A stretch of 64,000 nucleotides of DNA from assembly GCA_013178155.1 (NCBI GenBank), contig JABLXH010000026.1:1-64000 (forward strand), read 5' to 3'. This stretch comes from Armatimonadota bacterium (GTDB taxonomy: Bacteria; Armatimonadota; Zipacnadia; Zipacnadales; UBA11051). Positions 1-51,378 of this stretch are shown in pieces. Numbering within the stretch: the first letter of the stretch is position 1; the number at the start of each line of letters is the position of its first letter. A program made the position numbers and the translations under genes. The notes below the pieces were generated by a model that was given only the letters and a program-made list of their open reading frames with translations, did not search any database and was not told the origin of the DNA.

Positions 1-252
1 GCTTACTTGAAACAACAGAACCATATTGGTCTGGGGCTAGTCTCAATCCCTTGTTCATCAGGGCGGGGGGTACGACCCAGCGGCGAAAACGCGACTTCAC
101 GGGAAGTCGCTGACGCTGCACTTACCATGTCTCAATCCCTTGTTCATCAGGGCGGGGGGTACGACGGACATGGATGAGATCCTAATGGCCGCGCGGGATC
201 GCCACACCGTGGCGAGTCTCAATCCCTTGTTCATCAGGGCGGGGGGTACGAC
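1..252 (-). CRISPR. CRISPR array (leader-proximal end, array continues off the left edge)
   Basis: Three identical 37-bp repeats GTCTCAATCCCTTGTTCATCAGGGCGGGGGGTACGAC at 40-76, 129-165, 216-252; spacers 77-128 (52 bp) and 166-215 (50 bp), partial spacer 1-39. Reverse complement ends in ATTGAGAC, typical of the 8-nt crRNA 5' handle, so transcription is predicted on the minus strand with the leader at 253-457. Confidence 0.97.
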
Positions 253-27991: not shown

Positions 27992-29503
27992 ATGCTTGTC
28001 GCATTCCTGCTCCCCATCATTGCGCTTTCGCTCGAGAGCGGTACGGAGGCTGACCCTCTGCAAGCACCCATCGACATCGGAGACCGGCGCGAGTTGTTCG
28101 TGGACCGGCTGCTGATTGAGCGGCTTGACAACGCGGCCCTGAGGCTGCACGAGCCGGTCTCAGGCGGCGTGGTGATCCGCCTGGACAAGCCTTGGGAGGG
28201 ACCCGGGAACTTCCCCATGTCGGTGTTCGAGCACGGTGGCCGTCTGTTGATGTACTACCGCGCAATGAGGGTAGACACCGGGGATCCTCTCGGCGTGCTG
28301 TGCGTGGCCATTAGCGAGGACGGCGGAGAGACGTGGGCCAAACCGGCGCTTGGACTCGTCGAGTGGGGCGGCACGCGGGAGACCAACATCTGTGCCAACG
28401 AGCAGGGCCGACCGCTCATGGTCATCCCCTGGCTGAACACACGGCCTGGGGTGCCGGAAGACCAGCGCATCAAGGCCATCCACAGCGAGCCCCTGAGCGG
28501 CGAGGCACATACCGCCTATCAAGACCCGGCCGGCCCCAAGCGCCTGGTGTTCTGGGTGTCCGCCGACGGCTTCACCTTCCGCAAGCTGGACCCGCAGCCC
28601 GAGATGGTCAGCGACCTGCGCAACTGCTTTGACGGCGGAAACACCCTGTTCTGGAGCGAAGCGGAGCAGCAATATGTCCTGTACTACCGCTGGTATGAGA
28701 GCGAGGGGGGGAGGGGCTGGCGCAGCATGGCGCGCGCAACCTCGAAGGACCTGTTTCACTGGTCCGAGTCGATTCCCATGACCTACGGGGACACTCCCCG
28801 CGAGGAGTTCTACACCAACAACACGACGCCGTACTTCCGCGCCCCACACATCTACATCGCGCCAGCAGCGCGGTTCATGGAGGGGCGGCGGGTCATTACA
28901 GATGAGCAGGCGGCGGCTATCGGTTTGAAGGCCTCGCACGGGAACTTCTATGGCAACGACTGCTCCGACGCAGTCCTGCTCACCAGCCGGGCCGGGTCCA
29001 CGCGGTACGACCGCACCTTCATGGAGACCTTCATACGGCCGGGCCCGGGCGCGGGGAACTGGGTCTCGCGGACCAACTACCCGGTGACTGGCATCCTGCC
29101 CGCGGGGCCGGACCGCATCCAGATGTTTGTGGCCCGCCACTATATGCAGGATAGCTGGCATATCGAGCGTCTGTTGCTGCGGACCGATGGCTTCGTCTCG
29201 ATTACCGCGGCGTGGGCTGGAGGCGAAGCGGTCACCCGGTCGCTGGTCTTCAGGGGAAGCAGGCTGGAGATCAACTACCGCACCGGGGCCGCGGGCAGTG
29301 TGCGTGTGGAGATACAAGACGAGACGGACGCGCCGATCCCGGGTCGCAGCCTCGCTGACTGCAGGGAGATTATCGGCGACGAGATGGACCGAGTGGTGAC
29401 CTGGCAGGACGGCAGCGACCTAAGCGCCCTGGCCGGGAGGGCGGTGTGCCTGCGGTTCGTGCTGAGGGACGCCGACCTGTTCTCCCTGCGCTTCCGCGGC
29501 TAG
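27992..29503 (+). CDS. Secreted propeller-like glycosidase-family protein (function unknown)
   Basis: 503 aa; IDIGDRRELFVDRLLIERL, AISEDGGETWAKPALGL, VFWVSADGFTFRKLDPQ. Confidence 0.75.
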   Translation: MLVAFLLPIIALSLESGTEADPLQAPIDIGDRRELFVDRLLIERLDNAALRLHEPVSGGVVIRLDKPWEGPGNFPMSVFEHGGRLLMYYRAMRVDTGDPLGVLCVAISEDGGETWAKPALGLVEWGGTRETNICANEQGRPLMVIPWLNTRPGVPEDQRIKAIHSEPLSGEAHTAYQDPAGPKRLVFWVSADGFTFRKLDPQPEMVSDLRNCFDGGNTLFWSEAEQQYVLYYRWYESEGGRGWRSMARATSKDLFHWSESIPMTYGDTPREEFYTNNTTPYFRAPHIYIAPAARFMEGRRVITDEQAAAIGLKASHGNFYGNDCSDAVLLTSRAGSTRYDRTFMETFIRPGPGAGNWVSRTNYPVTGILPAGPDRIQMFVARHYMQDSWHIERLLLRTDGFVSITAAWAGGEAVTRSLVFRGSRLEINYRTGAAGSVRVEIQDETDAPIPGRSLADCREIIGDEMDRVVTWQDGSDLSALAGRAVCLRFVLRDADLFSLRFRG

Positions 29504-29658: not shown

Positions 29659-30918
29659 ATGACCAGTCGAACACCTGCTGCCCTGCTGATCGCTGTGGCC
29701 TCGGGCCTGGGTGCAGCCGCGCCCGCGTCGGATGGCCCTGCCCCGGCCTTTGAGAGGCCACAGCCCATCACCCTAGCAAAGCTGAGCGAACGGGAGGTCG
29801 CCGGGGTGTGTGCCGTAGAGGTCTGCGACTACGCTCCCGGCCATTACACGGGGCCGCTGGAGCCCAGCCCCCCGCACGCCGACCTGAACCCGCGGAGAGC
29901 GGTCATGGTTCTGTGGGAGGGCCACGCCCACCGGCTCGTCTTCAGCCACGAAGCCAGCTACTGCCCACTGCTGGAGCTACCCGGCGGGGAGGCGATGTGC
30001 AACCAGTTCTTTGAGGGGAACCTCGGCGAGGCCGAACTCTTCAACAACATGGGACGCAAGGAGAGGAACAGCTTCGTCGATATCCTCGAGGGCGGGCCGC
30101 AGCGCGTCTGGGTGCGCTGGACCTACTTCGCCGTCAACATGCTCGACGACTCGGCACCTCGCCTGCGCGGGTCCGAAGACTACTTTGCGTACCCGAACGG
30201 GCTTGTCCTGCGGCGGATGCGGTACGAGAGCCTGATGCCGGAGGCCGTGATCGGCTACAGCACGCAGCCGGTCGAGCTGTTTGGGGTGGCGCCGGTGGGC
30301 AAGCTCATCCGCGACCTGTTCCCGCGCGATGCCCGGGAGGGCGACTACCTCACCCACACGGCGCTCGATCTCTACAGCGACCGCCGCTACGACATCTTCT
30401 GGGGAGAGGACGGCAGGGTCCGGCGCAGCGGCGACGATGCCACGCTGGCCGCGATCTCTAGTTCGCCAGGCTGTGCTCTGGTCATGCCGTTCCGAGAGCG
30501 CCTGCTGTTCGCGATCCTGGGCCATGCCAGCGGCTTCCCGCCAGGCAGGAACCAGCTGATAGACCATTGCACGCCGGGTGCCGAGGGTGGCTGCGGGTGG
30601 GGCACGGGCCTCTGGGATCACTGGCCAATCGGGTGGCTGAACTCCCAGACTTCGCTGTGGAAGCCCGGCTCCCCCTACTCCTACAGCTTCGGATCCATCG
30701 GCCAGTTCTTTGTCCCGGAGGGGAAGCGTATCCGGTCCTTTGCGGAGGACTATCCGCGGTACTGCCAGGACATGGAACTCAATCGCTGGACAGCTGATCG
30801 GGTCTTCTACGTCCTGCTGGGCGCGGCCCAGGACTGGGACGAGATCCGCCGAATTGGTCGCGCCTGGTTGGGCAAGGGAGCGAAGTGCGCCGAACCGGAC
30901 AGCATCGCCGACCTCTAG
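29659..30918 (+). CDS. Secreted protein of unknown function
   Basis: Start MTSRTPAALLIAVASGLGAAAPASD at 29659; uninterrupted frame to TAG. Confidence 0.7.
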   Translation: MTSRTPAALLIAVASGLGAAAPASDGPAPAFERPQPITLAKLSEREVAGVCAVEVCDYAPGHYTGPLEPSPPHADLNPRRAVMVLWEGHAHRLVFSHEASYCPLLELPGGEAMCNQFFEGNLGEAELFNNMGRKERNSFVDILEGGPQRVWVRWTYFAVNMLDDSAPRLRGSEDYFAYPNGLVLRRMRYESLMPEAVIGYSTQPVELFGVAPVGKLIRDLFPRDAREGDYLTHTALDLYSDRRYDIFWGEDGRVRRSGDDATLAAISSSPGCALVMPFRERLLFAILGHASGFPPGRNQLIDHCTPGAEGGCGWGTGLWDHWPIGWLNSQTSLWKPGSPYSYSFGSIGQFFVPEGKRIRSFAEDYPRYCQDMELNRWTADRVFYVLLGAAQDWDEIRRIGRAWLGKGAKCAEPDSIADL

Positions 30919-30984: not shown

Positions 30985-31282
30985 CGCGCTGTGGGCTGGA
31001 GGCGAAGCGGTCACCCGCTCACTGGTCTTCAGCGGAAGCAGGCTGGAGATCAACCACCACACCGGGGCGGCTGGCAGTGTACGTGTGGAGCTCCAGGACG
31101 AGACGGGGGCGCCGATTCCCGGTCGCAGTCTCGCCGGCCGCGAGGAGATCATGGGCGACGGGATCGATCGTGTGGTGAGCTGGCGGGACGGGAGCGACGT
31201 CAGCGCCCTGGCGGGCAGAGCGGTACGCCTGCGGTTCGTGCTGCGAGAGCCGGACCTCTTCTCCATGCGCTTCGGCGACTGA
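30985..31282 (+). pseudogene. Relic: second copy of the 3' end of the 503-aa gene (27992-29503)
   Basis: VELQDETGAPIPGRSLAGREEIMGDGIDRVVSWRDGSDVSALAGRAVRLRFVLREPDLFSMRFGD aligns end to end with the last residues of the 503-aa protein; nucleotide match begins near ggctggaggcgaagcggtcacccg. Confidence 0.9.
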
Positions 31283-40999: not shown

Positions 41000-43540
41000 A
41001 TGCTGGTGCTGTTTCGACTCGTCTCGGCCGCTGTCCTGTTCCTATGGCTGAGTTTGGCGTGGAGTGCCCCGCTGGGTCGCCCCGGCACCGTGGCGACCTA
41101 CACCCTCGACGCAGACCCCTCGGAACGGCCCGACTTCGAGCGTCAGGGCAAGCTCACCGTGGTCACGATGAGACTGGGAATAGGGCCGGTCGAGGCGGTG
41201 CAGGGCGTGGAGTTCCAGTGGGCCCATCTCTCCTTCTCCCGCCTCAACGGCCAGACCTATGAGGCCTGGCTGCTCATGAGCAGATGGCCGGAAGCGCGTC
41301 AAGAGCCACAGGTCATGCGGTATCTTTGGCGTGAGCCGGGCTGGCCCGATGCTGTCGAGTTCATCCACGAGGTTACTGGCGCTGCTCAGCTTCCCCGCTT
41401 ATCCCTCTGGCAATACGGCTGGCCGCAATCCGTACAAGGCGGACCGCTGGGGCTGCTGGACGACGTGTTTCCGGAGGCGGTGAGATTTCAGGGCTACCCG
41501 TACAGACGAACTCAACTCGCGACCGAGCAATCCCTGGAGCCACCCCGGGACGTCACGGTGATCAGGCTCAACCCCGACCTGATCATCGGCCACATGACGC
41601 GTGACACCGATGTGCATGGGAAGCCCTACTGGGCCCTTCCTGACGGCAAGTACGAATACCGGGCGAAGACCCCGGAGGACCATCGCAAGCATTTCGAGGC
41701 CGGCTTCAACCTGTTCCAGGCGACTCCCCGAACCGACTGGCTCCTCCGCAGCAGCGCCTGGGACAACAACCTCTTCTGGCTCATGGATGACTGGCCAGCA
41801 CAGCTCTACCGGTCCAACTACTGGGGTCGTGCGATCTACGTGGATGAGCCCGCAATCCACAACCGCGCTCTGGACGAGCGCGCCGACCTCGCCGGCAAGC
41901 TCACGCCAGGTGAGGCAGTTTCGGCCCTGCAGGAGAGGCTGAACGCCGCACTTAGGCCTCATATCGGCAACTACTCACAAGTCTGGATCAATGAGTTCAT
42001 CGACCGTCAGTTCGGGCGCGGCGACCTGTGGATTGTGGAGCGCGATTACCCGGTGTGGGAGGCCATCTGGACGACGGCCTGGTACCAGCTCTCAGTGGAA
42101 GACGGCGTCTCCGGAATCGTTGATGAAGATGTTCCGGTGGGTGACCTCGTCGAGAGCTACAACCGGGCCTTTGGCACCCAGATTCCGCCGACGGTCCAGA
42201 ACGCCTGCGCTATCCGGGTGGCGGTCCTGCGCGGGGCGGCGCGAAACTTCGGTAAGCGCTGGGGCGTGGCGTTCTACTCGCCCGCAGAGTCCCGCCTCAA
42301 GGCAACGACGATACCGTACCTGTACGACCGCGGCGCCAGCTACTTCTGGGTGTGGACGGGTTGGGTGGGCATCAGCGACAACTCCGGCCTGCCCCACAGC
42401 TACCAGCGGTACTACGCCTCTCTGGTCAGACAGGCCCAGGCAGCCAACCCCCGCCGGGACATGGATGCTCTCCGCAAAGCCGCAAAGACCTGTATCGTGA
42501 TCCCCTACGGTTACACCTTCGCCCCCTACCCACTGCAGTATCTGAAATGGCTGCACCTGGAGCGCGAGACTGGCCACGGGGCGACATATCGCCAGGTGCT
42601 GACCAACGCCGCCGTCGAGGTGGAGCGCTGCATCCGGATGGGGGTTGAGTTCGACATCGCGGTAGACGATCCCACGTTCGCGGCGACGGGCTACGACGAG
42701 GTGATCTGGTGCCGGGAGGATGGCACGGTTGTCGTGCAGCGCGGAGACACGCAGGCCCCGCTTGACTCGGGGCGCGAACCTCCGCGACCGGACCTCGGCC
42801 CCGGGCCGCAGATCGCCATCGAGGTGCCCAAAGCCGTGCCCCCGGCTCCCGGCGAGATTGCTCTTAAGGCCATCGCCACGGCTGGTACTGGAGAGTTTGA
42901 GAACGGCAAGCCGACCATCACCTGGGAAGTCTATGGCCCCGACCAGGGCGTGCGCATGGCCAGCGGGGAGCAGATCAGTGTTGCCTTGCCGACGGGCGGC
43001 ACCTACCGCATCCGTGCCGCTGTGGCGGATGTCTTTGGCCGCCCGGCGGTAGCCTGGACCGAGTTGGCGGTTGTCGAGAGCCGTACCGACGCGGCGAGGT
43101 TCCCGTCCGAGTGGACTTTCAATACCGACCCCGACAACGTGGGTGAACAGCAGGGGTGGCATAGGCCGGACTTTGACGACAGCCAGTGGCAGCAGGTTCC
43201 GGTCCCTGCCTGGTGGGAGATGACGTCCGTCGGGGCCTATGACGGCTACGCCTGGTACCGCGTGCGGTTCACCGTCCCTGCTGAGCTTGCCGAAAAGGAG
43301 TTGGTGCTGGACTTTGCAGGTGTTGACGAGGGAGCGTGGGTCTACGTCAACGGAGAGCTCATCGGCGAGCGTACTGCCCGTTCTACCGGGCTGGCTCCGC
43401 TGGACTTCTGGGACAAACCCTTCAGCGTGCCGGCCAAAGAGATCCGCTTCGGTCAGGAGAACCTTCTGGCCGTCAAGGTCCACGACTCCGAGAAGATGGG
43501 CGGCATTTTCCGGCCCGTGAGACTCTTGGTGGCCAGGTAG
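41000..43540 (+). CDS. Secreted protein with C-terminal GH2-like sugar-binding module
   Basis: 846 aa; C-terminus FPSEWTFNTDPDNVGEQQGWHRPDFDDSQWQQVPVPAWWE...WVYVNGELIGERTARSTGLAPLDFWDKPF. Confidence 0.75.
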   Translation: MLVLFRLVSAAVLFLWLSLAWSAPLGRPGTVATYTLDADPSERPDFERQGKLTVVTMRLGIGPVEAVQGVEFQWAHLSFSRLNGQTYEAWLLMSRWPEARQEPQVMRYLWREPGWPDAVEFIHEVTGAAQLPRLSLWQYGWPQSVQGGPLGLLDDVFPEAVRFQGYPYRRTQLATEQSLEPPRDVTVIRLNPDLIIGHMTRDTDVHGKPYWALPDGKYEYRAKTPEDHRKHFEAGFNLFQATPRTDWLLRSSAWDNNLFWLMDDWPAQLYRSNYWGRAIYVDEPAIHNRALDERADLAGKLTPGEAVSALQERLNAALRPHIGNYSQVWINEFIDRQFGRGDLWIVERDYPVWEAIWTTAWYQLSVEDGVSGIVDEDVPVGDLVESYNRAFGTQIPPTVQNACAIRVAVLRGAARNFGKRWGVAFYSPAESRLKATTIPYLYDRGASYFWVWTGWVGISDNSGLPHSYQRYYASLVRQAQAANPRRDMDALRKAAKTCIVIPYGYTFAPYPLQYLKWLHLERETGHGATYRQVLTNAAVEVERCIRMGVEFDIAVDDPTFAATGYDEVIWCREDGTVVVQRGDTQAPLDSGREPPRPDLGPGPQIAIEVPKAVPPAPGEIALKAIATAGTGEFENGKPTITWEVYGPDQGVRMASGEQISVALPTGGTYRIRAAVADVFGRPAVAWTELAVVESRTDAARFPSEWTFNTDPDNVGEQQGWHRPDFDDSQWQQVPVPAWWEMTSVGAYDGYAWYRVRFTVPAELAEKELVLDFAGVDEGAWVYVNGELIGERTARSTGLAPLDFWDKPFSVPAKEIRFGQENLLAVKVHDSEKMGGIFRPVRLLVAR

Positions 43541-43612
43541 ACCTGCCCAAACAACACAAAGTGCCGCACGACATACACGTAGATTGCCTTCGCAGACGAT
43601 GGGAGTGAGACG

Positions 43613-45973
43613 ATGCGAAAGTGCACTTTCTGGGCCGCATTCATCCTGCTTCACAGTGTCGGTCTTGCGGCTGGTGTCGCGCCACATCCTGAGTGGCGCA
43701 ACGCCATGGTCCCGCAAGGCGAACCAGGTCCGCTGCTGACGCTGGCTCAGGATGGAAAGACCGATTACGTGATTCTGCTCCCAGGGCGCCCGACCGGGCC
43801 GGAGCAGAAGGCAGCGGAGGACCTGGCGAAGTGGCTGGGGGAGATAACCGGGGCCCGTTTCCCGTTAGTGCGTGAGGGGACGGACCCTGCGCCCACGGGG
43901 CCATGTATCAGTATCGGCCGCACCCGCTTGCGCAGCGAGTGTCGGGTTTCGCGTCCAACGACAGACCTGGGGCGCGACGGCTACGCCATCCAGGTTGCCG
44001 CACCGCACCTATTCATCACTGGTGGCACGCGGCGGGGCATGGTCAACGCTGTGTACTCGCTGCTGCAGGAGGATTTGGGCTGCCGGTGGTACATCCCGGG
44101 CGTGGACCCGGTCATCCCGAAACGACCGACGCTGCGCTTCCGGCCGGTCTTGCGGTCGCACCGTCCCGTCTTTGAGGACCGGCGTGACCCGTACTACGGC
44201 GATGTGGCCTATGACGCTGACTGGTCCATCCAGAACCGGACCTACGCCCTGACGGCGACGGTGCCCGCGTCTGCAGGCGGCTATCCCCGCTACTGGCCGT
44301 CCTTCGTACACACCTACGACGCCTTGGTGCCGCCGTCGAAGTACTTCGCCCAGCACCCCGAGTACTTCTCGGAGATCGCCGGCAAGCGCCAGCCGTTCCA
44401 GCTTTGCACGACGAACCCGGACGTCCGGCGGATCATCATTGACCAGGTCCTGGCCGCTCTACGCACGGACCCGGAGATCCAGATTGTGGACGTGTCTCCC
44501 AATGACCGCCGCGACTACTGCGAGTGTGCCCAGTGTAAGGCGATTGACGACGCCGAGGGGACGAAGATGGGGTCGCTGCTGACGCTCATCAACCTGGTTG
44601 CGGACGCGGTGAAGGAGGAGTTCCCCAATGTCCGCATCACCACCCTCGCTTACCTGGACACGGTCGTGCCGCCGAAGACGATCCGTCCTCGCGACAACGT
44701 GCTGTTGTGGCTCTGCACCGACGCCCACGCGTGGAGCAACCCGAACCTGTTCGTCTGGGAGACCGAGAAGTTCTCCAGCTCGATGAAGCGCTGGCAGGCC
44801 GCCGGGGCGAAGATGGTCATCTGGGACTACCCCTCCTCCTTCGTCTACATGCAGCCCAACATCAACCTGCATGTCGTTGCCGAGAACGTGCGCTGGTACG
44901 CCAGGCATGGGGCCACCGGAATCTTCTACCAGTGCATGCACAACTGGAACCGGGCGGCGGACCACAGCTATCTGCGCGGCTGGTTGTGGGCGCAGCAGGC
45001 GTGGAACCCGGACCTGGACACGAGCGCGCTGGTGCGGGACTTCAACTACGGCTTCTACGGCGTTGCTGCCCCACCGATGCAGCGCTATGACGACATGCTG
45101 CACGCCGCCTGGCGCGAATGGCGCCGGCACCGGGGCCAGAAGGACTACACCGGGCCCGTGGACGCAAGCTTCGCCGCCCGTGGACTGGCGCTCATGGACG
45201 AAGCAATGCGATTGGCCGGCGGTGATAAGGAACTGGTGCGGCGCATCGAGATCGCCAAGCTGCCGTTGCTCTTTGTGACCCTGCAGGCCGGGAGAAAAGG
45301 CGAGCTCGCGCCGTATCTGGCGATGGTGGATGAGTTTGAGCGTATCGCCCGGGCCGCCAACGCCGTCTTTGTGGAGAACGCCTTCCAACAGGCCGACCTG
45401 GACGCCAAGCTCACCTACTGGCGCGAGAAAGCGCGACTTGATCCGAGCAAGGTGTCTATCCAGGCGCTTGGCAACGAGTGGCGGTTCCGGCCGGACCCTG
45501 GAGACGCGGGCGTGGCCGAGAAGTGGTTCGCGGCTGACCTGGACGATTCCGGCTGGGCGAAGGTCCGCTCGGACAAGGGGAACGGCTGGGAGGCCCAGGG
45601 CTTCTCGGGACACCACGGCTATGGGTGGTACCGCCAGCGGTTCACGGTGACGGAAGAGGTGCTGAAGCAGGAGGGCCTGCGCCTGTTCTTCGGCGCGGTG
45701 GATGAGCAGGCGTGGGTCTACCTCAATGGCCAGCTGGCCTTCGAGCACACTGTGGCGACGACGGGGCTGCCTGTCGAGATCCTCTGGACGACGCCTTTCG
45801 GCTTCGACCCGCGGCCGTTCCTCAGACCCGGTGAGAACACGATCGCCGTGCGCGTCCACGACACCTTGGGTATGGCCGGCATCTGGAAGCCCGTCAGTCT
45901 GGTGTGGGGTGACACCAGCTATAGCCCAATGATGCTGGAGGAAGTGGTGCGCCTGAAGACGGCTGCCCGCTGA
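43613..45973 (+). CDS. DUF4838 protein with GH2-like C-terminal module
   Basis: 786 aa; VSPNDRRDYCECAQCKAIDD; AWVYLNGQLAFEHTVATTGLPVEILWTTPF; VHDTLGMAGIWKPVSLVWGD. Confidence 0.85.
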   Translation: MRKCTFWAAFILLHSVGLAAGVAPHPEWRNAMVPQGEPGPLLTLAQDGKTDYVILLPGRPTGPEQKAAEDLAKWLGEITGARFPLVREGTDPAPTGPCISIGRTRLRSECRVSRPTTDLGRDGYAIQVAAPHLFITGGTRRGMVNAVYSLLQEDLGCRWYIPGVDPVIPKRPTLRFRPVLRSHRPVFEDRRDPYYGDVAYDADWSIQNRTYALTATVPASAGGYPRYWPSFVHTYDALVPPSKYFAQHPEYFSEIAGKRQPFQLCTTNPDVRRIIIDQVLAALRTDPEIQIVDVSPNDRRDYCECAQCKAIDDAEGTKMGSLLTLINLVADAVKEEFPNVRITTLAYLDTVVPPKTIRPRDNVLLWLCTDAHAWSNPNLFVWETEKFSSSMKRWQAAGAKMVIWDYPSSFVYMQPNINLHVVAENVRWYARHGATGIFYQCMHNWNRAADHSYLRGWLWAQQAWNPDLDTSALVRDFNYGFYGVAAPPMQRYDDMLHAAWREWRRHRGQKDYTGPVDASFAARGLALMDEAMRLAGGDKELVRRIEIAKLPLLFVTLQAGRKGELAPYLAMVDEFERIARAANAVFVENAFQQADLDAKLTYWREKARLDPSKVSIQALGNEWRFRPDPGDAGVAEKWFAADLDDSGWAKVRSDKGNGWEAQGFSGHHGYGWYRQRFTVTEEVLKQEGLRLFFGAVDEQAWVYLNGQLAFEHTVATTGLPVEILWTTPFGFDPRPFLRPGENTIAVRVHDTLGMAGIWKPVSLVWGDTSYSPMMLEEVVRLKTAAR

Positions 45974-45987
45974 CCGGCTGGCACCGG

Positions 45988-46135
45988 CACATCGCTCGTG
46001 GGCGAGGTCTCGCGGGTGAACGATGACCACCACGGTAACTTCTTCCTGGAACCCGTCGGGCGCTTCCCTGGGATCGAGGCTGACGACTCGCCGCTGCACC
46101 TGCTGTGCACCGAGTACCCCGCCGCGCGGCGGCAG
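45988..46135 (+). pseudogene. Short coding relic
   Basis: Protein-like frame SLVGEVSRVNDDHHGNFFLEPVGRFPGIEADDSPLHLLCTEYPAARRQ with no start codon or gene body. Confidence 0.4.
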
Positions 46136-46136
46136 A

Positions 46137-46191
46137 ACCGGCTGCCAGCCGGTCCCTGCCGAGAGCCACCCTGACAGGCAAACTGCCTGTC
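46137..46191. repeat. Pair of perfect intergenic hairpins
   Basis: ACCGGCT-GCC-AGCCGGT (46137-46153) and GACAGGCA-AAC-TGCCTGTC (46173-46191). Confidence 0.75.
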
Positions 46192-46219
46192 CTACCGATA
46201 GCGAAGGAGGCTCGCAGAT

Positions 46220-48838
46220 ATGAACGAAAACCAGCGCACCGGCACACTTTTCATCATCCCGCACACCCACTGGGAGGGCGCGGTGTTCCAGACCCGCGAG
46301 GCCTACCTGCGCATGGGCCTGCCCAACATCCTGCGCGCCCTCGCGCTGCTGAGAGCCTATCCGCACTACCGCTTCACCCTCGACCAGGCCTGCTATGTGA
46401 AGCCCTTCCTGGAGCGCTACCCGCAGGAGGAGGCGGATTTCCGGCGCTTCATCGCGGAGGGCCGGCTCGCGATTGTGGGCGGCACGGATGTGATGCTCGA
46501 TGTCAATATGCCCGGCGGCGAGTCATTCGTGCGCCAGGTGCTGTACGGCAAGGGCTACTTCCGCGAGAAGCTCGGGGTGGATGTGACCGTGGGCTGGCAA
46601 CTGGACACCTTCGGCCACCACGCCCAGATGCCGCAGCTTCTGAGGCTGGCGGGCTTTCGGTCCTTCTGGTTCTTCCGGGGGGTGCCGGACTGGGACACGC
46701 CTGCGGAATTCCTCTGGGAGGGGCTTGACGGCACGCGCATCCCTGCCGTCTGGCTGCCCGAGGGCTACGCAGTGGCGCACGGGTCGCCAGCGTCGCTTCC
46801 CGAGTTCTCCGCCCACATGCAGAGCTGCTATGAGCGTCTCGGGCGCTGGTCGCCAGGGCCCGATCGCGTCGGTCCGGACGGCCCCGATGTCTGCCCGCCG
46901 GAGGAACATCTCCCGGCCCTCGTCGAGCAGCACAACCGGCAGCCTGATCAGGCGCTGCGCCTGCAACTTGCCACGCCGCAGGAGTACGAGGCGGCTGTCC
47001 ACCTCGGTGAGAGCGGGCCGGTCCTCACGGGCGAGCTCAACCCGGTCTTCCAGGGCATCTACAGCAGCCGCATTGAACTCAAGCAGATCACGCACAGGCT
47101 TGAGAACCTGCTGACGACGGCCGAGGCGCTGGGCGTGTTGTTGCGCTGCGTCGGCGTCGAGACCTCGGACGACACCCTGTGGGCAGCCTGGGAGCCGATG
47201 CTGTTCAACCAGGCCCATGATCTGATGTCCGGCGTGATGACCGACGCCGTCTACGAGGACACGCTCGGGGGCTATGACTTCTCTCGCCGCATCGCCGAGC
47301 ACGAGGTCGAGACCCGCCTGCGCCGCTACTGCGAGGCGGTTGACACTCAAAGCTGTTCGAGGACCTCGCCGGTGCACTGCCATCACGGTCAGGAGACCGC
47401 TCCTACCGGTCCCGAAACCGCCTCGCAGGGCGAGGGGCTGGCGCTGGTGGTGTTCAACGCGCTAGGCTTTGCGCGTACCGGTGTCGTCACCACGACGATC
47501 GGCTTCGCCCGGCAGGATGTCAGGGCCATCCGACTGACGGGCGCTGACGGCGAGCCGCTGGCGTGCCAGATCCTGCGGGAGGAGCGCTATGGCAACGGCG
47601 CGCTGCTGGAGGCCGACATTGCCTTCGTCGCCCGCGATGTGCCCGCTCTCGGGCACATCGTGTACTGGGTGCTGCCGACCGAGCCGGACGATCCCGACGC
47701 AGCGGTTCCGGGCACACCGTCGCGCGCCGGGGTCCTGGAGAATGAGCTCCTGCGCGTTCAGATTGACCCGGGCACCGGAGCGATCCTGAGCATCCTCGAC
47801 AAGGTCAGCGGCCAGGAGGTCCTGAGTGCGCCCGGCAATGTCATCGTCCGTGAGGAGGACCACGGCGATCTGTGGGAACCGTACCGGCCCCTCGACGGCG
47901 GCAGCCGCATCGCGATGAAGGATGAGCACCCCGTGCCGCCGCGCGGGCAGGCCGTCTACAGCGATGAGCAGACCGGGGAGCCGGGACAGGGCGTGATCGG
48001 GCCGGTGGTGTCGGAGTTCAGCGTGGAGCACGACTTCGGCGATAAGGGTCGCTTCGCCACAATGGTACGCGTGTACTCCGGGATGCCAAGGATCGAGGTC
48101 CAGACGCGCCTCGTCAACAACGATGAATTCGTGCGCTACCGCGCACTGTTTCCCACGACCATCAAGAAGGGAAGGGTCGTCCACGAGATCCCGTTCGGGG
48201 CCATCGAACGTCCCTGCGGGATCGAGTTTCCCGCGCAGAACTGGGCGGACTACGGCGACGGAACGCACGGCCTGGCCCTGCTGAACCGCGGCCTGCCGGG
48301 CAATGCCGTCAGCGACGGGACGCTGCTTCTGTCCTTGCTGCGCAGCACCCGCATCGTGGCCTACGGCTTCGGCGGCGGCTACGGGCCAGGTATGTCCTCG
48401 GACTCGGGACTCGAGCTGGGCAAGGAGTTTACCTTCGACTACGCCCTGCTGCCCCATGCCGGAGACTGGCGCCAGACCGGCCTTTGCAGGCAGGGCCTGG
48501 AGTTCAACAGCCCGCTCCAGGCCGTGACAGCCGCCATGCACGCAGGAGTCTTGCCGGCGCGCTGGGGCTTTGTGCAGGTCCTGCCCGATAACGTCATGGT
48601 CTCCGCTCTGAAACCCTCGCGCGAGGGGAGCGCGGTGCTGCGGGTCTACGAGGCGGCGGGGCAGGCGACGCCCGGGGTCGAGGTTCGACTTCCCGGGGCC
48701 GTCCAACAGGTGCAGGAGGTGGACCTGATGGAGGACCCCATGGCTGAACTGCAATGCGAGGAGGGCATCGTCCGCTTCGATCTGCGGCCCTTTGAGATCA
48801 AGACGCTGCGGTTCAAGCTGCCACATCTGGCTGGCTAG
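46220..48838 (+). CDS. Glycoside hydrolase family 38-like alpha-mannosidase
   Basis: 872 aa; IIPHTHWEGAVFQTREAYL, VGWQLDTFGHHAQMPQLLRLAGF, MLFNQAHDLMSGVMTDAVYED. Confidence 0.85.
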   Translation: MNENQRTGTLFIIPHTHWEGAVFQTREAYLRMGLPNILRALALLRAYPHYRFTLDQACYVKPFLERYPQEEADFRRFIAEGRLAIVGGTDVMLDVNMPGGESFVRQVLYGKGYFREKLGVDVTVGWQLDTFGHHAQMPQLLRLAGFRSFWFFRGVPDWDTPAEFLWEGLDGTRIPAVWLPEGYAVAHGSPASLPEFSAHMQSCYERLGRWSPGPDRVGPDGPDVCPPEEHLPALVEQHNRQPDQALRLQLATPQEYEAAVHLGESGPVLTGELNPVFQGIYSSRIELKQITHRLENLLTTAEALGVLLRCVGVETSDDTLWAAWEPMLFNQAHDLMSGVMTDAVYEDTLGGYDFSRRIAEHEVETRLRRYCEAVDTQSCSRTSPVHCHHGQETAPTGPETASQGEGLALVVFNALGFARTGVVTTTIGFARQDVRAIRLTGADGEPLACQILREERYGNGALLEADIAFVARDVPALGHIVYWVLPTEPDDPDAAVPGTPSRAGVLENELLRVQIDPGTGAILSILDKVSGQEVLSAPGNVIVREEDHGDLWEPYRPLDGGSRIAMKDEHPVPPRGQAVYSDEQTGEPGQGVIGPVVSEFSVEHDFGDKGRFATMVRVYSGMPRIEVQTRLVNNDEFVRYRALFPTTIKKGRVVHEIPFGAIERPCGIEFPAQNWADYGDGTHGLALLNRGLPGNAVSDGTLLLSLLRSTRIVAYGFGGGYGPGMSSDSGLELGKEFTFDYALLPHAGDWRQTGLCRQGLEFNSPLQAVTAAMHAGVLPARWGFVQVLPDNVMVSALKPSREGSAVLRVYEAAGQATPGVEVRLPGAVQQVQEVDLMEDPMAELQCEEGIVRFDLRPFEIKTLRFKLPHLAG

Positions 48839-48944
48839 AGGATCGTCGCGCTCTCCCCCACAACCCGAGGTCGCGGGTGTCGCCGACGTTCAGGCGACAG
48901 GACCCGCGAGAGGTCTCGCACTGGTCCCGCGGGGCCTGCCCGCT

Positions 48945-49083
48945 CAACGACGCGGGCACCCGCGTGCACGATACTGTGGGTATGGCCGGCATCTGGAAGC
49001 CGGTCACTCTGGTGTGGGGTGATACGAGCTACAGCCCAATGATGATGGAGGAAGTAGTGCGCCTGAAGAGGGCTGCGGACTGA
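48945..49083 (+). pseudogene. Relic: second copy of the 3' end of the DUF4838 gene 43613-45973
   Basis: RVHDTVGMAGIWKPVTLVWGDTSYSPMMMEEVVRLKRAAD versus RVHDTLGMAGIWKPVSLVWGDTSYSPMMLEEVVRLKTAAR, with closely matching nucleotides through the stop codon. Confidence 0.9.
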
Positions 49084-49179
49084 CCGGCCGGGGCTCACGA
49101 AGGAAGCTTTGCTCAATGATAGCCGGTACAACGCGGTCCAGCTCAGGGCAGATCATGAACCCATGGGGACTGATTCCGA

Positions 49180-51378
49180 ATGAGCCATCTCACACTTGGG
49201 ACTCTGATGCTGGCTGCTGCGCTCCCAGCCTGGGGCGACATTGGCCTGGTGACGTGGCTTCATCCGCAGGCTGATGGGCGCTTCGCGTTGGAGAGCGCCG
49301 TTCGGGGCGTCGAGGTGCGGGTTGCGACTGCCGACGGCACCCCTGTGGTGGACGCCGAGACGCTCAGGGCGGCTGGTTGGGAGTGGTCCGGAGACGGGTT
49401 CTGGCAGACGCCCCGCCGGGCGGGCGGCGGCAAGCTGCTGATCACGGTAAGCGGACTGCCCGCCGGGACGCACCAGGTTTACCTGCGGTGTTTCACCCAG
49501 CCGCGCATTCCGGGCAACCCCTGGTGGTTCATCCTGCTCCGTGGTCTAGATGATGGTCGGCCGCCTTCGGAACCGGACCGCATCGTCGCCGGCACAGGCG
49601 GCCATGACCCCCGCACCGTATATGAGACCCACCTGGGCATCGTGGGCACGGAGGAACAGCCGACCGCACAGTTGACCCTGTGGATTGAGCGCTACGAGTG
49701 GAGCGAACTCGCTCGGTTTGGCTCCATCCGCATCGAGACTGCCCCCTCGATGAACTATTCGACTACCGCAGAACCGTCGCCGGCCAACGAACGCATCCGA
49801 GCCACACTACTGGAAAACGGACCGCGCGAGGACGGCAAGCCCGTCTACGGGGTGGCCGTGGTGAGCGGGACCCTGAAGGTGCGGCCCAAGAGCTTCACAG
49901 CGCTGGAAGATCAGCCGCTGGCATCCGCGATCAGCATGTCGGCCGCGAAAGGGGAGTACGAGAGCCGACAGGTCCTCATTTACAGCCCGGCGCGCGATCT
50001 GGTCGGCGTGACAGTGGATTGCTCACCGTTGACGAGCGAGACCGGCGACGTGATCCCTGCCACGGAGTTGCTGTTCGCACCCGTCGGCTACTGTCCCTAC
50101 CGCGTGCCCCATAACCTGACCGTCCACGGCTGGTGGCCGGAGCCGATTCTGACCTTCCTCAAGCAGTTCACCATTCAGGGCGGGGACGTGCAGACTCTGT
50201 GGTACCGTGTGCATGTGCCGCGGGATGTGCGGGCAGGAGTCTACCGCGGCACCGTCACCGTCAGGGCAGAGGGCGCTCCCGCCTGCACCGTGCCCGTCGA
50301 TCTTCGCGTGTGGGACTTTGCTCTCCCCAAGTGGCCGCGATTGCGGGTGGTTGTGGGCTGCAATCGGGTGGGCGAGTTCGAGATGAGCTATGGGCTGAAC
50401 CCGAGCACCATCTACGGCTTCGATGACCGCTGGACCGAGGAATTCCCGAGGTGGGCGGAGGCAGGGGTAACGGCCATCAACCTGGCCTACATCTGGGGCA
50501 AGCAGATGGACCCGCAGACGAAGTTGCCCACCGACGCACAGCTCGATGAATGGGTGACGCAGATCCGCAGGCGCTATGAGGCGGCTACGAGGGCAGGTCT
50601 GCGTGACGCCTGCTACGTCTACCTGTTTGACGAGGCCACCGCCGAATGGGACGCGGCCATGCAAATGGTCTCGGGCCGCCTGCGCCAGGAGTTCCCCGAC
50701 CTGCTGCTCTTGACAACCGCCCACCGTGCCTGGTACCCGGGGGCGACGGTGCAGGACGGGGGCGCCACCATCGAAGACATCAACGGCTGGTGTCCCGCGA
50801 CCTTCCACTACAACTACGAGGAAGCCGCAAAGGCTCGGCGTCTGGGCCGGCAGGTCTGGTGGTACACCTGCAACTCGCCGGAAAAGCCCTTCGCCAACAT
50901 TCTCATGAGCCACCCCGCCACGGACGCCCGGCTGCTGATGGGGTTCATGGCCTTCGCCTACCAGACCGACGGCTTCCTGTACTATGCAACCGCCGGCGGC
51001 ACCTACGAGAACCGGCCGGCGATCACCGAAGGACCCTACACGCAATGGGCGATTGAAGACAACGCCCACAACCACCTCTACCAGAAGGGCCCGGACGGGC
51101 CGCTGCCATCACTACGACTGGAGGCCATGCGGGACGGGCTGGAGGACTACGACTACCTTTACCTGGCCCAGCGCGCCCAGCGGGATTTACGGGAGGTGGA
51201 TGTGACTACCCCGGAGCTGGAAGCTCTGGCGCGTGAGATCACGCCGTACTTCGCACCAGGCAATGGGCTTGTGGAGAGCTTGACGGAATACAGCGAAGAC
51301 CCGCAGGAACTGGAGTCGGCCCGGGAACGGGTGGCCCGGTACGTTGAGGAGGCCCAGGCACTGCTTCAGGAGTTATGA
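49180..51378 (+). CDS. DUF4091 (GH123-like) glycoside hydrolase
   Basis: 732 aa; AKGEYESRQVLIYSPARDL, GVYRGTVTVRAEGAPACTVPVDLRVWDFALPKWPRL, YVYLFDEATAEW, MRDGLEDYDYLYLAQR. Confidence 0.85.
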   Translation: MSHLTLGTLMLAAALPAWGDIGLVTWLHPQADGRFALESAVRGVEVRVATADGTPVVDAETLRAAGWEWSGDGFWQTPRRAGGGKLLITVSGLPAGTHQVYLRCFTQPRIPGNPWWFILLRGLDDGRPPSEPDRIVAGTGGHDPRTVYETHLGIVGTEEQPTAQLTLWIERYEWSELARFGSIRIETAPSMNYSTTAEPSPANERIRATLLENGPREDGKPVYGVAVVSGTLKVRPKSFTALEDQPLASAISMSAAKGEYESRQVLIYSPARDLVGVTVDCSPLTSETGDVIPATELLFAPVGYCPYRVPHNLTVHGWWPEPILTFLKQFTIQGGDVQTLWYRVHVPRDVRAGVYRGTVTVRAEGAPACTVPVDLRVWDFALPKWPRLRVVVGCNRVGEFEMSYGLNPSTIYGFDDRWTEEFPRWAEAGVTAINLAYIWGKQMDPQTKLPTDAQLDEWVTQIRRRYEAATRAGLRDACYVYLFDEATAEWDAAMQMVSGRLRQEFPDLLLLTTAHRAWYPGATVQDGGATIEDINGWCPATFHYNYEEAAKARRLGRQVWWYTCNSPEKPFANILMSHPATDARLLMGFMAFAYQTDGFLYYATAGGTYENRPAITEGPYTQWAIEDNAHNHLYQKGPDGPLPSLRLEAMRDGLEDYDYLYLAQRAQRDLREVDVTTPELEALAREITPYFAPGNGLVESLTEYSEDPQELESARERVARYVEEAQALLQEL

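Follow-up and report, generated by a model that had tools for sequence, protein, structure and literature searches.

The analysed locus lies on contig C131 (positions 1-64,000, referred to below as the window) of a metagenome-assembled genome, most likely of the Armatimonadota (5.53 Mb, 211 contigs, estimated contamination 2.7%). Between 43 and 51 kb, the plus strand carries in succession gene U, gene A (DUF4838), the tail of an isomerase gene, gene B (GH38), an orphan DUF4838 tail (A') and gene X. Gene U (41000..43540), which forms the left flank of an inserted block, encodes a protein of 846 aa with a GH2-type C-terminal sugar-binding domain (Pfam). Gene A (43613..45973) is an intact ORF for a DUF4838 protein of 786 aa with a C-terminal Glyco_hydro_2_N domain (Pfam); DUF4838 paralogues are numerous in this genome (16 matches). 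Gene B (46220..48838) codes for a GH38 alpha-mannosidase of 872 aa and gene X (49180..51378), the right flank of the block, for a GH123-like protein of 732 aa (both from ORF and Pfam analysis). The interval between U and X is 5.6 kb long (43541-49179). A degraded second copy of gene U (67-77% identity at the nucleotide level) was noted on another contig (G000:C3:2474-3929, L115).

The orphan tail and its parent

The final 123 nt of gene A, together with 8 nt beyond its stop codon (45851..45981), are repeated on the same strand at 48961..49091. The two copies form an ungapped repeat of 131 nt with 88% identity (E 2.7e-41), which confirms the observation of the earlier note that the DUF4838 tail recurs directly after the GH38 gene. 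The whole-genome search revealed exactly two copies, 3.1 kb apart, with no significant third copy of this tail anywhere in the organism's own genome. The span of 48945-49090 given previously for the second copy is right as to the repeat and begins about 16 nt too early, since the nucleotide match starts at 48961; upstream of this point only the protein-level match extends weakly, to 48946 (tblastn). The downstream copy consists of 41 codons (stop included) from the end of another DUF4838 homologue, followed by 8 nt. It begins 122 nt past the GH38 stop codon (48838), stays in frame up to its own TGA at 49083, ends 88 nt ahead of X, and has neither a 5' part nor a start codon of its own that would give a sensible gene.

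The 246-nt gap between the DUF4838 and GH38 genes contains a second truncated sequence (45980..46126, plus strand, 49 codons, without the 5' part). It is the 3' end (47-49 codons) of a gene for D-lyxose (D-mannose) isomerase, with matches to NCBIfam LyManIsomGneg and to positions 178-222 of the 222-position Pfam profile Lyx_isomer (E 2e-13). It corresponds to aa 178-226/227 of the isomerase gene on contig C173 of this genome, and its relatives are mostly 47-70% identical. Full-length homologues of about 220-240 aa are encoded by the majority of relatives within the order, and this genome has one such gene at another locus. The position of this tail, directly ahead of an alpha-mannosidase gene, suggests that the GH38 gene arrived with part of a mannose-isomerase neighbour.

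The junction between B and A' includes a palindrome-bearing sequence of 42 nt (48868..48909, no strand assigned), 90% identical to the rlmN-trpB intergenic sequence of the related genome G020 (L214, 1501-1542) and present in a single copy in each. A mobile palindrome of the REP type was considered and rejected, as the 42 nt occur once here and once in G020, with a 24-nt piece in G045. The predicted fold of the GH38/A' gap is no better than those of shuffled sequences (z -0.69). Two further repeat arrays were encountered. Near the start of the contig (window positions 35-252), three repeats of 37 nt (GTCTCAATCCCTTGTTCATCAGGGCGGGGGGTACGAC), spaced about 88 nt apart, resemble the end of a CRISPR array. 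In the relative G014, locus L061 (G014:C338, 4380-4797) contains a tandem array with a period of 42 nt, whose frames read RSAAPSP...GRVVG repeats; it adjoins a REP-associated-transposase-like gene and copies of it appear again at the contig end.

The same layout had been reported at 28-31 kb, and this second case proved to be real. Its parent gene A28 (27992..29503, plus strand) and the intervening gene B28 (29659..30918, plus strand) belong to no Pfam or NCBIfam family. They are followed on the same strand by an orphan A28' tail (30985..31282) of 98 codons in frame plus a stop, with 84% identity to the parent; the repeat (29206-29501 versus 30985-31280) comprises 296 nt. The homology ends at the stop codon at 28 kb and about 8-9 nt beyond it at 48 kb, so that the two copies of each pair have no terminator in common, contrary to the earlier suggestion that the layout preserves the tail or terminator of a resident gene. 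Downstream of the A28' tail (31487 to about 34000), a carbohydrate-enzyme-like frame is broken by several stops and constitutes a pseudogene.

The pattern of substitutions was examined by codon analysis. Nine of the 15 differences in the coding part of the DUF4838 pair are synonymous (dS 0.42, dN/dS 0.16) and the 28-kb pair gave similar values (dS 0.43, dN/dS 0.27). Neutral evolution of both tails was rejected in each case (P 0.0025 at 48 kb and 8e-5 at 28 kb), and a model in which the orphan was neutral throughout also fits poorly (combined P 0.005-0.02 for both window pairs). The outgroups G014 and L059 are approximately equidistant from A and A' (32-36 differences per 120 nt). The synonymous excess in both pairs indicates that most of the divergence accumulated while each tail still belonged to a functional gene. 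Hence the orphan represents the end of another homologue, one that once functioned, and not a fresh copy of the tail of A; to judge from this coding-type divergence, the two tails stem from genes that evolved separately. The scar is in all likelihood without function.

A gene whose 3' end contains a repeat of 100-150 nt that is found again downstream also recalls the TR/VR pair of diversity-generating retroelements. Such an element was rejected, because the mismatches do not lie at adenines (A is present in the orphan at 3 of the 16 differences and in the parent at none) and the orphan keeps its reading frame under coding constraint; the ORF list contains no reverse transcriptase gene between the two copies.

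Recurrence in the genome

A wider scan had been proposed in the earlier note, comparing 3' with 5' fragments beside their parents. It was carried out on 2.13 Mb (38%) of the genome with home-made, permissive gene calls; repeats were searched for by blastn (in the first 1.85 Mb, then in all 2.13 Mb) and protein fragments by tblastn. Four cases of a parent, an intervening gene or reading frame and an orphan tail were found, with 81-97% identity and repeats of 113-296 nt. Besides the two window cases (C131 29206/30985, plus strand, 84%; C131 45851/48961, plus strand, 88%), these are a GH4 parent followed by a 617-aa gene and a frameshifted tail (C130 12241-12352/10172-10284, minus strand, 81%) and a parent of glycosyltransferase family 4 separated from its tail by an uncalled, frameshifted membrane-protein frame (C135 118098/119809, 97%). 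All four local orphans are 3' tails on the strand of the parent and downstream of it, with one gene or reading frame between. In the same sample, tblastn detected no 5' or middle fragment beside its parent. The idea of a recurring process at gene 3' ends is thus upheld for this part of the genome. If the eight possible placements (5' or 3', upstream or downstream, either strand) are taken as equally likely, the agreement of the two non-window cases has a probability of about 1/64 and that of all four with one another 1/512, figures that rest on small numbers.

A further 3' copy close to its parent, the fifth (C135 122851/123771), is a partial tandem with no called gene between. The 5' fragments found outside normal genes are all non-local, namely one at C3 12059, 16 kb from its parent, and one prepilin-like N-terminus, and the numerous 5' matches within intact genes trace to one conserved N-terminal family. 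Other local repeats were set aside as prepilin-like N-termini, PEP-CTERM tails with terminators, tandem paralogues or contig-end overlaps. In about 0.56 Mb of relatives' loci, mostly in pieces of 3-5 kb and hence with low power, the layout was not seen. Taken together, these data support a recurring, 3'-biased process, the bias being based on few events (n=4; 38% of the genome covered; home-made gene caller).

Another type of 3' duplication was observed at G000:C135:77007-79254 (L083), where two neighbouring genes with unrelated bodies have PEP-CTERM-like C-termini. The sorting tail and the terminator-like hairpin that follows it are common to both (91% over 169 nt, near 100% in the 3' part), and the pair represents a duplicated tail-plus-terminator module.

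Comparison with relatives and origin of the scar

In G020 (contig C698), the ortholog of U (79% aa identity) adjoins that of X (77-78%) at a distance of about 75 nt, with neither DUF4838 nor GH38 between them; the 5.6-kb block is absent. The closest G020 relatives of A (85%) and B (66-76%) are located on other contigs, and further relatives of A were found in G014 (80%/77%) and L059 (76%). For each of the genes A, B, U and X, the closest relatives belong to other families of the order, which is in line with horizontal transfer. At C130, none of 17 relatives has the intervening gene beside GH4 (in 13 of them, 0.7 kb or more could be compared downstream), which supports its being the newcomer there.

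The relatives G009, G014, G016, G020, G023 and G045 gave no DUF4838 gene beside a GH38 gene, several of their loci ending at contig ends, and no genome was found with a resident order U-A'-X or a donor order A-B. The identity of gene A to its relatives in G020, G014 and L059 varies along its length without one clear step, there being no close donor or recipient genome, and the G020 copy ends before the tail region. No microhomology is readable at the junctions, for which neither a close relative nor an undisturbed A' serves as reference.

We give about even chances to the view that the orphan is the 3' remnant of a diverged DUF4838 gene (A') that was resident at the site and was displaced by a foreign segment with A and the GH38 gene through one-sided recombination. 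The incoming segment would have carried A, or at least its 3' part, together with B. The first join would have been homologous, in or upstream of the A/A' gene, and the second illegitimate, formed inside A' near its 3' end or earlier, during formation of a donor circle. The body of A' would thereby have been displaced and its 3' end pushed downstream. The product would be an intact A (possibly an A'/A chimera), B and the leftover end of A', all on one strand beside the old downstream gene. Both the donor and the order of events, as well as the two kinds of join, are what we infer from the product. The isomerase tail between A and B needs one additional event. Of the modular insertion before a resident 3' end envisaged in the earlier note, the inserted block stands, given the adjacent flanks in G020; an insertion merely copying the tail of A does not agree with the divergence of the tails (dS about 0.42, dN/dS 0.16-0.27).

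Coding-type divergence of the tails would equally be expected if A and A' had been two long-lived DUF4838 genes on either side of GH38, of which A' was mostly deleted with its 3' end left, and the genome is rich both in DUF4838 paralogues and in pseudogenes such as the interrupted ORF from 31487. We nevertheless regard this as rather unlikely. Not one pair of intact homologues with at least 70% aa identity and one gene apart was found in 2.13 Mb, against four cases with a tail only, so that the loss of one flanking paralogue is not favoured. Random deletion should moreover leave 5' heads too, and none occurs beside a parent.

Alternatively, the tails might be the left edges of transferred segments to which the 3' end of the donor's upstream neighbour remained attached, for example [A' tail + X] and [lyxose-isomerase tail + GH38]. 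An exact example exists in G016 (C17, L196, at about 1.4-1.5 kb, reverse strand), where the ortholog of X is preceded by the last ~17 codons of U alone, beside the gene of ribosomal protein L31. This remnant is best explained as an independent orphan 3' tail in another family, formed as such a hitch-hiking edge, and the isomerase tail directly ahead of the GH38 mannosidase gene fits the same scheme. As the sole source of the tails this explanation seems improbable to us, since it leaves unaccounted for why, in four cases, the genome's best homologue of the tail should be the gene two positions further upstream, and the search found no symmetric 5' heads at right edges.

It is very improbable that a mobile element inserted GH38 shortly ahead of the 3' end of A and in doing so duplicated the tail as a target site or cassette. 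The layout by itself resembles this, and the youngest case (C135) is 97% identical, but the insert contains no recombinase or transposase ORF, the lengths of the tails vary (113-296 nt), and the window tails differ by 12-16% with a signature of purifying selection. More specific forms were rejected as well: an integrase-mediated island at a gene 3' end, as there is no recombinase, GH38 is the sole gene between the copies and the repeats are 131 nt long and 12% diverged; and an insertion sequence with target-site duplication, as there are neither short identical direct repeats nor a transposase-bearing insert. An assembly or binning artefact joining two strains is hardly credible, despite the 211 contigs, the 2.7% contamination and the true contig-end overlaps in the set, because the B-A' junction has no sequence common to the supposed strains at which an assembler could switch, the first 1.85 Mb checked contain no N runs, and the orphans have substitutions of their own and a frameshift.

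Comparison with displacement systems

For the favoured one-sided displacement of A', published precedents of such outcomes are available (PMC5361080, PMC2935791, PMC3240628). In the displacement of Rhs C-terminal tips (Jackson et al. 2009, PMC2935791), for which that paper names mafB as an analogue, incoming DNA is taken to recombine homologously, via a proposed circle, so that the former 3' end is moved downstream. Rhs loci and the present one share an intact gene, downstream of which orphan 3' fragments from its own gene family lie on the same strand. The Rhs fragments have a near-identical core and differing toxin tips, whereas the homology of the tails described here, which are 3-19% diverged, reaches to the stop codon or almost to it and, unlike in Rhs, a whole unrelated enzyme gene separates parent and tail. 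Rhs, polymorphic-toxin and immunity genes are absent (the Pfam families are DUF4838, GH38, GH123 and GH4).

A similar process has been inferred for T6SS effector-immunity modules of Vibrio cholerae (PMC5361080), in which the module is anchored by homology on one side and joined illegitimately on the other; the body of the resident gene is displaced and its downstream part left as an orphan. The leftovers in that case are intact immunity genes, possibly under selection, in contrast to the short, untranslatable tail in a glycoside-hydrolase cluster seen here. Homology-facilitated illegitimate recombination (HFIR), the defining events of which are laboratory transformants (PMC3240628; experiments cited in PMC5361080), predicts duplicated homologous ends flanking newly acquired DNA, as observed at this locus, which is known from its product alone. 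The mechanism would resemble C-terminal displacement, yet by gene content the locus is not a member of those toxin systems.

Our literature search revealed nothing on a pattern of 3'-tail displacement in polysaccharide clusters. Noteworthy here is a presumed displacement-type process seen repeatedly among ordinary catabolic genes. We consider it a doubtful extension that the clusters of this lineage, an order of Armatimonadota, grow by a strongly biased process, in which incoming genes are anchored through homology with the 3' half of a gene already present, whose 3' end is always left downstream. Ordinary catabolic genes would then be recruited by a general route of C-terminal displacement. 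At about one recognisable scar per 0.5 Mb, the process would be common enough to influence operon structure and to leave a fossil record of the sequence of cluster assembly.

Such scars record polarity, that is, which gene came later and beside which older gene. Should the pattern of four out of four prove true of the whole genome and of sister genomes, one-sided displacement leaving the 3' end, so far known mainly from toxin loci, would be a general route for adding enzymes to the carbohydrate-degrading clusters of free-living bacteria, and the assembly history of a cluster could be read from its DNA. It should also be borne in mind during annotation that short in-frame 3' fragments between operon genes may be leftovers and not small genes.
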